Shown here: piece by piece, positions 5,667 through 55,826 of the stretch
Position numbering within the stretch: the stretch's first letter is position 1
Layout: every line of letters begins with the position of its first letter
Assembly (NCBI RefSeq): GCF_021732705.1
Contig: NZ_JAKFUM010000007.1
Span: 1 to 64,000 of the forward strand
Reading direction: 5' to 3'
Length of the DNA stretch: 64,000 nucleotides
Origin: Nevskia sp.
Lineage (GTDB): Bacteria; Pseudomonadota; Gammaproteobacteria; Nevskiales; Nevskiaceae
The notes under the pieces: model-generated
Database searches by the model: none
Seen by the model: only the letters and a program-made list of their open reading frames with translations
What the model was told of the DNA's origin: nothing
Program-made: the position numbers and the translations under genes

Positions 5667-5695
5667 TTGACAGTGCCGTGATGCCGTCGCAATCT
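5667..5695 (+). promoter_or_regulatory. Tentative sigma-70 promoter for the riboswitch transcript
   Basis: A perfect TTGACA -35 box at 5667-5672, 17 bases before CAATCT, which is a poor -10. It is placed about 40 bases before the start of the conserved riboswitch core. The -10 match is weak, so this is only a candidate. Confidence 0.3.
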
Positions 5696-5734
5696 TCGTT
5701 CAGCTTCGGTCCGACCGGACTGTCGGCAGCACAG

Positions 5735-5920
5735 ACAGGATGGGCGGCGAAGAGGGAATCCGGTGCGCCAGCGGTACGGCAATTCCGGGGCTGCCCCCGC
5801 AACTGTAAGCGGCGAGTTGGCGATCGATGCGTCGTGACGGACGCGCCACTGGTGAGGCTACCGGGAAGGCGGATCGCAAACGCGGACCCGCAAGCCAGGA
5901 GACCTGCCGAAGCTCTTGAT
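5735..5920 (+). promoter_or_regulatory. Cobalamin (adenosylcobalamin) riboswitch
   Basis: The conserved blocks appear in order: GGGAATCCGGTGC, AATTCCGGGGCTGCCCCCGC with ACTGTAAGC, GCCACTG, GGGAAGGCGG, and GACCCGCAAGCCAGGAGACC (the B12 box). Spacing and order fit the classical cobalamin riboswitch (Rfam RF00174 type). In known cases ligand binding shuts off the downstream gene. Here the first gene downstream is the BLUF/B12-domain protein at 6036, about 115 bases after the B12 box. No intrinsic terminator with a U tract is evident, which points to control of translation start, but this is inference. Confidence 0.93.
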
Positions 5921-6022
5921 GAACCTCGGGCGGGGTGCACCGATGGAATGACGGGCGTTGCCGGGCGTCGAGCCTGCAGCAGCCCCGCATTCCCGCGTGG
6001 TGCTTGGCAGAGGCGACCGTGC

Positions 6023-52801: not shown

Positions 52802-53281
52802 ATGAACGACATCCGCGTCATCAAGAAGTATCCGAACCGTCGCCTGTACGACACCAACGTCAGCCGCTACATCACGCTGGAAGAGGTGCGCCAGCTCGTG
52901 TTGAGCAACGTGAAGTTCAGGGTCGAGGACAAGCGGACGAAGGAAGACATCACGCGCAGCATCCTGCTGCAGGTGATTTCCGAGCAGGAAGAAGGCGGCA
53001 ATCCGATTTTCAGTTCGGAACTGCTGACCCACATCATCCGCTTCTATGGCGATCCGATGCAGCCGAGCATCAGCCGTTATCTGGAGATGTCGCTGCAGTT
53101 GTTCCTGCAGCAGCAGACCCATTTCAGCGAGCAGCTGAAGGACCTGCTGGGTCAGGCTCAGCAACCCGTCCAGCGTCTGAAGGAACTGGCCGAACGTCAG
53201 GTACCGATCTGGCGCACGGTCCGCAAGGAGTTCCTGAAGAACCTGACGCGCGCCAAGGCCGCGACGGCTGGCCGCGAGTGA
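52802..53281 (+). CDS. phaR: Polyhydroxyalkanoate synthesis repressor PhaR
   Basis: A 159-aa DNA-binding protein. The start MNDIRVIKKYPNRRLYDTNVSRYITLEEV at 52802 is the conserved N-terminal PHA accumulation regulator domain; the second domain (~70-115: FSSELLTHIIRFYGDPMQ) follows, then a Gln-rich helical tail. PhaR binds DNA and PHA granules, repressing phasin and itself until polymer is made. No phaC, phaB or phasin gene is in the window. An sRNA-like unit follows ~190 bases downstream. Confidence 0.93.
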   Translation: MNDIRVIKKYPNRRLYDTNVSRYITLEEVRQLVLSNVKFRVEDKRTKEDITRSILLQVISEQEEGGNPIFSSELLTHIIRFYGDPMQPSISRYLEMSLQLFLQQQTHFSEQLKDLLGQAQQPVQRLKELAERQVPIWRTVRKEFLKNLTRAKAATAGRE

Positions 53282-53436: not shown

Positions 53437-53465
53437 TTGACAGTCCGAAATCACGCACTTATACT
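53437..53465 (+). promoter_or_regulatory. Strong sigma-70 promoter of the sRNA candidate
   Basis: TTGACA (53437-53442), 17-base spacer, TATACT (53460-53465). This is a near-consensus promoter. Predicted start is about 53472. No ORF follows it on this strand. Confidence 0.88.
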
Positions 53466-53471
53466 GCACCG

Positions 53472-53592
53472 CAACAATTACCCAACAATGAAAAGGCGCA
53501 GCAAATTATTATTATCTGCGCCTTGAATGTCTCCTCCAGAAAGGCCTAGCGCCTTTCTCGCACCTTGCCCCCTGCAACAGGGGGTTTTTTTT
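53472..53592 (+). ncRNA. Candidate small RNA, about 120 nt, with CTCCTCC anti-SD-like motif
   Basis: It stands between phaR (+) and pnp (-), transcribed from its own near-consensus promoter to an intrinsic terminator. Visible structure: stem AAGGCGCAG/CTGCGCCTT (53493-53501, 53516-53524) with an A/T-rich 14-base loop; an unpaired segment TGTCTCCTCCA holding CTCCTCC (53531-53537); stem GAAAGGC/GCCTTTC (53539-53545, 53551-53557); then the terminator. The single-stranded CTCCTCC could pair with Shine-Dalgarno sequences, as known for C/U-rich loops of some trans-acting sRNAs. No start codon with a useful frame is found. It is not a recognised Rfam family to me. Confidence 0.75.
53568..53592 (+). 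terminator. Intrinsic terminator of the sRNA candidate
   Basis: CCCCCTG-caa-CAGGGGG followed by eight T residues (53585-53592). A strong rho-independent terminator. Confidence 0.95.
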
Positions 53593-53726: not shown

Positions 53727-55826
53727 TCAGGCGACGTCGACCGCCTTCATCGACAGGCGGATGCGCCCCTGCTTGTCGATTTCGAGGACCTTGACCTTGA
53801 CGGTCTGGCCTTCGCTGAGCTCGTCCGCCACGTTCTCGACGCGCTTCTCGGAGATCTGCGAGATGTGCACGAGGCCGTCCTTGCCCGGCAGGATCGTCAC
53901 GAAGGCGCCGAAATCCATCAGCTTGGCCACCTTGCCTTCGTAGACTTCGCCGACCTGCACTTCGCGGGTCAGCGCTTCGATGCGCGCGATGGCGGCCTTC
54001 GCGGCATCGCCGTCGATGGCGGCAATGCGAATCGTGCCGTCATCGTCGATGTCGATCGAGGTACCGGTCTCTTCGGTGATCGAGCGGATGGTGACGCCGC
54101 CCTTGCCGATGATGTCGCGGATCTTGTCCGGGTGGATCTTGATCGTCGTGATGCGCGGCGCGAACTCCGACATCTCGGCACGCGGCTTGGCAATCGTCGC
54201 GGTCATCGATTCGAGGATGTGCAGACGACCCGCGCGGGCCTGTTCCAGCGCCTGCTTCATGATCTCGCCGGTGATGCCGGTGATCTTGATGTCCATCTGC
54301 AGCGCGGTGACGCCAGAAGTCGTGCCGATGACCTTGAAGTCCATGTCGCCGAGGTGATCCTCGTCGCCAAGGATGTCGGTCAGCACGGCCCAGCGGTCGC
54401 CGTCCTTGATCAGGCCCATCGCGACACCGGCCACCGGCGCCTTGATCGGCACGCCGGCGTCCATCAGCGCCAGGCTGGCGGCGCAGGCCGAGGCCATCGA
54501 CGACGAACCGTTCGATTCGGTGACTTCGGCAACGACGCGGACGACGTACGGGAAATCCTTGACCAGATCCGGCATCACGGCAGCGACGCCGCGCTTGGCC
54601 AGACGGCCGTGGCCGATTTCGCGGCGCTTCGGCGCGTTCAGGCGGCCGGTTTCGCCGACGCAGTACGGCGGGAAGTTGTAATGCAGCATGAACTGATCGC
54701 GGGACTCGCCCTGCAGGTTCTCGATCAGCTGCGCGTCCTTGCCGGTACCGAGCGTGACCACGCCCAGAACCTGCGTCTCGCCGCGGGTGAACACCGACGA
54801 ACCGTGGGTACGCGGCAGGATGCCGACGCCCATGTCGAGGCGGCGCACGGTCTTGTTGTCGCGACCGTCGATGCGCGGCGCGCCCGATAGAATCCGGTCT
54901 CGGACGACCTTGTATTCGAGATCGCCGAACGCAGTCTTGACCTTCGCGGCCTCGAACTTCGGCGTCTCGCCTGCGGCCAGCGCGGCAATCGCGGCGTCGC
55001 GAACCGCACGGACAGCATCCTGACGAGCCTGCTTGTCGGTGATCGCGTACGCGGCGGTGACATCGGCCGTGTAGGCTTCGAGTGCAGCGGTCAGGTCGCC
55101 GTTGGTGGCCGGCGCAGTCCACGCCTGCTTCGGCTTGCCGCACTCGGCGACGAGTTCATTGATCGCCTTGATCGCGGCCTGCATTTGCTCGTGGCCGTAC
55201 AGGACGGCGCCGAGCATAACGTCTTCCGACAGCTGCTGGGCTTCCGATTCGACCATCAGCACCGCATCGGACGTGCCGGCGACGACGAGGTCGAGCTTCG
55301 ATTCCTCGAGCTGCTTGTGGGTCGGGTTCAGCACGTACGCGCCATCGATGTAGCCGACGCGCGCGGCGCCGATCGGGCCCTGGAACGGCACGCCGGCCAG
55401 CGACATGGCGCAGGACGCGCCGAGCAGCGCCGGGATGTCGCCGTCGATCTGCGGATTCGACGACATGACCATCGCAACGACCTGAATCTCGTTGTAATAG
55501 CCTTCCGGGAATAGCGGACGCATCGGCCGGTCGATCAGGCGCGAGGTCAGCGTTTCCTTTTCGGTCGGACGGCCTTCACGCTTGAAGAAACCACCCGGGA
55601 TACGGCCACCCGCGTAGGTGCGCTCCATGTAATCGACGGTCAGCGGGAAGAAATCCTGACCTTCCTTCGCATCCTTCTTGGCGACGACGGTGACCATGAC
55701 CACGGTCTGATCCACCGTGACGATGACCGCGGCGGACGCCTGACGGGCGATCGCGCCGGTTTCGAAGGTGACGGTGTGGGCACCGTACTGGAATGACTTT
55801 TTGATGGGCGCTACGGGATAGACCAT
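53727..55826 (-). CDS. pnp: Polynucleotide phosphorylase
   Basis: A 699-aa 3'-5' phosphorolytic exoribonuclease and degradosome component. Two RNase PH domains (first ~10-230, second ~310-530, with the active-site [22 protein letters not shown] and [10 protein letters not shown] acidic region), KH domain ([20 protein letters not shown]) and S1 domain ([31 protein letters not shown]) are in the usual order. It is last gene of the rimP-nusA-infB-rbfA-truB-rpsO-pnp series. The end is at 53727, after which the sRNA terminator on the opposite strand lies ~135 bases away. Confidence 0.97.

Follow-up and report, generated by a model that had tools for sequence, protein, structure and literature searches.

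The window, a 64,000-nucleotide stretch of Nevskia sp. DNA, contains a real sRNA element at positions 53437-53592 of the forward strand. It is flanked by phaR (52802..53281, +), which encodes a PHB/PHA accumulation regulator (PF07879 and PF05233) and is the proposed controller of the sRNA, and by the convergent pnp (53727..55826, -), which encodes polynucleotide phosphorylase. The PF07879 match of this genome scores 98.9 bits and precedes the sRNA match by 434 nt. Elsewhere in the window, a cobalamin riboswitch (RF00174, 115 bits) is located at 5690-5925 on the forward strand.

The sRNA gene begins with a sigma-70 promoter of the form TTGACA-N17-TATACT (53437-53465), whose -35 element TTGACA (53437..53442, +) and -10 element TATACT (53460..53465, +) match 11 of 12 consensus positions. 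Five promoter-like sites were found, against about 0.4 expected per shuffled 2 kb. Placed by its spacing from the -10 element, the predicted transcript of about 121 nt would extend from 53472 to 53592 (+). A 5' leader hairpin (hairpin 1, 53493..53524) is followed by a single-stranded stretch (53525-53537) that includes the exposed seed UCUCCUCC (53530..53537), which is complementary to GGAGGAGA and forms the 5' end of both the conserved core and the presumed processed form. Downstream are hairpin 2 (AGAAAGGC/GCCUUUCU, 53538..53558), a conserved single-stranded linker CGCACCUU (53559..53566) and an intrinsic terminator (53567..53592) composed of an 8-bp stem with a triloop (53567-53585) and a U8 tract, the eight T ending at 53592. 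The minimum free energy is -41.2 kcal/mol compared with -26.3 +/- 3.35 for shuffled sequences (z = -4.45; 0/200 shuffles as good). In the complete RNA, UCUCCUCC is unpaired with a probability of 0.72-0.96, which rises to 0.88-1.0 in the predicted short form, cut at the base of hairpin 1. A preliminary description of this DNA had proposed the promoter, three hairpins, an exposed CTCCTCC and an eight-T terminator, all of which are confirmed, and had stated that no ORF fits. This also holds: the sole internal ATG start with a stop gives 12 codons, has no Shine-Dalgarno sequence and is not retained in the relatives' leaders examined.

Distribution and conservation of the sRNA family

The label 'orphan' given in the preliminary description is wrong. 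In a DNA search, 57 of 61 related genomes (order Nevskiales, Gammaproteobacteria; several families) proved to carry the core, with three copies in the genome studied here and two or three copies in tandem in some relatives. The conserved core (53529..53592, +) matches the covariance model R1 with 83.7 bits, and this model also recovers, in a small number of further gammaproteobacterial families, weaker relatives of the sRNA body. The exact core pattern occurs in 16 contigs, and those named to genus all belong to Nevskia, Solimonas, Sinimarinibacterium or Stenotrophobium.

Stem conservation and covariation, on which the preliminary description had made its reading depend, are found in these relatives. 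Across 70 distinct sequences, 98.5% of the cells of hairpin 2 are paired and three of its eight pairs show changes on both sides. Hairpin 2 and the terminator covary, and the covariation of the whole structure (0.173 versus 0.079) is greater than that of all shuffles (0/500) and of every slid control. Almost no variation is seen in the seed and the linker CGCACCUU. The leader hairpin is retained although its sequence diverges: 65 distinct leaders have a mean z of -3.24, and 80% of them fall below -2.

The association with phaR is similarly widespread. The gene is present in 59 of the 61 relatives, a same-strand sRNA copy is located shortly downstream of it in 49 of the 57 sRNA-bearing genomes, and the nearest copy mostly starts 410-730 nt past the PhaR DNA-binding domain.

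A PhaR-type operator in the promoter

Directly behind the -10 box, and fused to it, is the sequence TGCACCGCAACA (53465..53476, +), which was missed in the preliminary description and overlaps both the -10 element and the probable start. It matches exactly TGCRNYGCANMA, the core of the R. (Ralstonia) eutropha PhaR operator YTKNTGCRNYGCANMAR (PMC12849132), and is close to the Bradyrhizobium PhaR operator TGCRNYGCASMA (PMC6201568). The exact TGCRNYGCANMA is present in 69 of 78 sRNA copies, nearly always fused to the -10 box, compared with 0.08% of shuffled upstream regions. Because the 69 box-bearing promoters share ancestry, these genome counts are not independent. Over the 69 distinct promoters, mean pairwise identity is 91% for the -10 hexamer and 90% for the box, whereas it is 29% for the -35/-10 spacer and 28-34% for spacer and flanks together; the individual positions of TTGAC are 83-94% conserved. 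Since the -10 hexamer and box are about 90% identical while their surroundings are at background, the box is under selection and not merely inherited. Two marks of a PhaR regulon, a conserved box TGCRNYGCANMA at the promoter and PhaR in the genome, are present. An operator overlapping -10 and +1 implies control, so the simple constitutive strong expression suggested by the preliminary description is not supported.

The same data could describe a trans-acting anti-Shine-Dalgarno sRNA whose TGC box is read by some other regulator, or is a mere favoured initiation sequence, and whose link to phaR is positional. Phasin (PF09361) promoters, used as a control for the box, fit this reading, with two matches in 30, on the reverse strand; the classical PhaR-phasin regulon is not seen in these genomes. 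The same is true of the homologous RNAs in families f117, f143 and f183, which are without the box, and of G056, an exception that keeps phaR and an sRNA with a box-less promoter. The fit of the box to published PhaR operators is nevertheless exact, its TGC...GCA dyad is invariant in all 69 promoters, phaR is missing from just two genomes, G044 and G047, which have the sRNA without the box, and the same box occurs at a different promoter position at the RF02278 loci described below. Another regulator is therefore unlikely, and PhaR is retained as the predicted one.

The box-less sRNA promoters of G044, G047 and G056 (L247, L246 and L253) share a different conserved stretch, approximately TTGAyTyATACGAAAGTCGTACTATACT, and f6 relatives that do carry the box show a similar TTGACTAAAGTCGTA. 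A scan of the genome studied here with a degenerate box returns 157 sites compared with 68 for the reversed control; such sites are too common to define a regulon alone. A PhaR-type box TGCACTGCAACA is also fused to a -10-like TTATAGT at G000:C13:33852-33863 (L095 1501-1512), directly 5' of a tandem glycine riboswitch (RF00504 twice).

The location between phaR and pnp, with about 135 nt from the terminator to the pnp stop codon, would also suit a phaR 3' UTR element or an RNA that regulates the convergent pnp transcript in antisense. This is very improbable for an RNA that has its own conserved promoter and terminator, that is found in copies at other loci and in clusters with their own promoters, and in which conservation is strongest in the C/U-rich seed rather than in any pnp-complementary stretch.

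The signal that PhaR would read is a separate matter. Judged by PF07167, no more than about half of the genomes have a real PHA synthase, and a match at or above the cut-off of the class III synthase models is seen in 2 of 61. The genome studied here has one partial PF07167 match of 27 bits, with a GWSFGG motif that carries Ser rather than Cys. G000 and other Nevskia genomes retain the pair of phaR and sRNA although no convincing PHA synthase is encoded in them. Synthase-less genomes that keep the pair probably make no PHB, and because many hosts, this one included, have no convincing synthase, the signal may not be PHB. The link to carbon storage raised in the preliminary description gains substantial support from the phaR synteny (49/57) and the PhaR-type operator on the promoter, and may or may not involve PHB itself.

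Related sRNAs and a second lineage with the box

The Infernal search against Rfam suggested in the preliminary description finds no family at the sRNA locus at gathering thresholds. The best family is RF02278, with 19.4 bits against a gathering score of 50 over the full length (1-64); a related RNA in G171 (L220) scores 28 bits. RF02278 is the 'Betaproteobacteria toxic sRNA' or double-hairpin RNA family. Its layout of a C/U-rich 5' end, one hairpin, a terminator hairpin and several copies is found in the Nevskiales sRNA as well.

The nearest analogues are Bordetella S17/S17S (PMC11722255) and the RF02278 RNAs ncS03, ncS05, ncS27 and ncS62 of Burkholderia cenocepacia (PMC5688073). Common to all is a short two-hairpin body starting with UCUCCUCC, a 3' terminator, several copies per genome and a longer precursor that carries a leader. 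In S17, RNase E processing is described as yielding a form of about 67 nt (PMC11722255), and S17-like processing of the Nevskiales sRNA is possible because a leader hairpin precedes its core. The two groups differ in the hairpin beside the seed, which is AGAAAGGC/GCCUUUCU in Nevskiales and CCACC..GGUGG in RF02278 and coq7-linked loci, and in their locus: the Nevskiales sRNA is located behind phaR, between phaR and pnp, whereas the S17/RF02278 type adjoins coq7, as does S17 in Bordetella (PMC11722255). The 27-nt S17 core shared through Betaproteobacteria appears to be absent from the Nevskiales sRNA, judging by the distribution of the Nevskiales core and the coq7-linked hairpin. An identity with S17 itself was considered and rejected because the hairpin beside the seed differs and the named core contigs all belong to the four genera listed above.

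The PhaR box recurs in a second lineage, a Burkholderiaceae-like family (f112) named here from its RF02278 scores and coq7 neighbourhood and sampled with one genome per genus. RF02278 members above the gathering score are present in 41 of its 61 genomes. Among the 30 best RF02278 loci (L382-L411), 28 carry the exact box TGCRNYGCANMA within 140 nt upstream, compared with 0.2% of shuffles, usually near -35 and not at -10/+1 as in the Nevskiales sRNA. A neighbouring ORF is shared by 26 of the 32 loci examined and is COQ7 in the member tested; none of the loci was identified as Bordetella itself. The S17 authors postulate an unknown repressor at the S17 promoter (PMC11722255), and the regulation of the B. 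cenocepacia RNAs, which are more abundant in glucose medium, is reported as unknown (PMC5688073). PhaR is mentioned neither in the B. cenocepacia paper (PMC5688073) nor in a 2024 review, and it is absent from the available text of the S17 paper (PMC11722255). PhaR is an obvious candidate for the repressor at S17/RF02278 promoters.

RF02278-like RNAs with a ACUCCUCCAUCCUCCUUUGGUGG core are also found below the Rfam threshold in many other gammaproteobacterial families (L098-L126, class-wide scan). PhaR control is not universal, since these RNAs are mostly without the PhaR box and a different conserved block, approximately TTGACA..ATATTAGAnAATnCTTACATACTGATT, is common to the promoters of at least 14 of 30.

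A further likeness is to the alphaproteobacterial MmgR/alphaR8 RNAs, which also combine a C/U-rich single-stranded core and an intrinsic terminator with several copies, in many genera, and a link to carbon storage (PMC12542648, PMC12559287, PMC8401924). In Sinorhizobium, PhaR binds the mmgR promoter at TGCACCGCAGCA (PMC12542648); the corresponding box of the Nevskiales sRNA is the predicted TGCACCGCAACA at 53465-53476. The 10-nt MmgR/alphaR8 core UUUCCUCCCU, positioned behind a weak hairpin, differs from the Nevskiales seed UGUCUCCUCC, and a phaR neighbourhood is not mentioned in the available text of these reports. No literature on sRNAs in Nevskia or Solimonas was found. By sequence the sRNA constitutes a new family; mechanistically it is a variant of a kind already known.

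Candidate targets and proposed mechanism

The target prediction for the CTCCTCC segment proposed in the preliminary description was performed in six Nevskia genomes and considered only sites of the form GGAGGAGA-N3-9-ATG. In total, 99 GGAGGAGA sites precede an ATG, and the 92 usable genes form 54 unrelated groups. The arrangement recurs at a PQQ-dependent methanol/ethanol-type (alcohol) dehydrogenase in all six genomes, a PaaG-type isomerase in five, a MetX-like hydrolase in four, and wax ester synthase/DGAT-type acyltransferases and flavin monooxygenases in three each. A T directly 5' of GGAGGAGA is enriched (20.8 of 54 independent groups versus 16%; p 4e-5), and this T would lengthen pairing with the sRNA, not with 16S rRNA. 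Resting on one 8-mer and close relatives, the recurrence is suggestive only, and it points to the PQQ alcohol dehydrogenase and the PaaG-type isomerase as candidate targets. In B. pertussis, paa genes are among the S17-affected genes, and the C/U-rich 5' end of S17S binds the BP2158 5' UTR through compensable base pairing and represses translation (PMC11722255).

The element is likely to be an autonomous gene whose product is a trans-acting sRNA, one of a Nevskiales family that is controlled by PhaR and masks Shine-Dalgarno sites of catabolic mRNAs. From the computed gene anatomy, conservation, covariation, phaR synteny and operator match with its conservation, we infer the following scheme. 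The sRNA would be transcribed from the sigma-70 promoter, which the neighbouring PhaR would bind at TGCACCGCAACA over -10/+1, most likely as a repressor whose effect is lifted upon PhaR titration. A cut at the base of the leader hairpin would probably shorten the transcript of about 121 nt to a form of about 65 nt starting with UCUCCUCC. This end would pair, perhaps with the participation of Hfq, with GGAGGAGA in or beside the Shine-Dalgarno sites of catabolic mRNAs and block their translation, by analogy with S17S. In physiological terms, the sRNA would probably act as a carbon-status brake on catabolic genes. The masking role already put forward in the preliminary description gains from the conservation and accessibility of the seed, the recurrent GGAGGAGA sites and the function measured for the S17 and B. 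cenocepacia ncS27 analogues (PMC11722255, PMC5688073), while the targets remain candidates. A decoy that titrates 30S subunits or an RNA-binding protein is hardly credible in place of a base-pairing regulator of chosen mRNAs: cloned RF02278 relatives do inhibit E. coli growth (PMC5688073, PMC7011215), but S17S shows no notable toxicity and its repression of BP2158 works through compensable base pairing (PMC11722255), and a seed that resembles the 16S anti-Shine-Dalgarno sequence would pair with mRNA and not with 16S rRNA.

The element new to this locus is TGCACCGCAACA, fused to the -10 box and identical to the published operator core TGCRNYGCANMA, and the wider pattern of interest is that C/U-rich sRNAs of three lineages carry such operators. 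On balance, we favour a widespread circuit in which PhaR controls C/U-rich anti-Shine-Dalgarno sRNAs through differently placed operators, comprising MmgR in Alphaproteobacteria, S17/RF02278 in Burkholderiaceae and the Nevskiales family. PhaR would then be the unknown repressor of S17, and the Nevskiales PhaR would respond to a signal different from PHB, because in that order phaR and the sRNA stay together even where PHA synthase is missing. The 'toxic' or double-hairpin sRNAs are described as damping catabolism, with their switch left open (PMC5688073, PMC11722255), and the PhaR box at the sRNA promoters of two lineages is a candidate answer to what switches them on. If true, the circuit would link the state of carbon storage with post-transcriptional catabolite control beyond the known alphaproteobacterial case, and it raises the question of which signal PhaR reads in bacteria without a PHA synthase.
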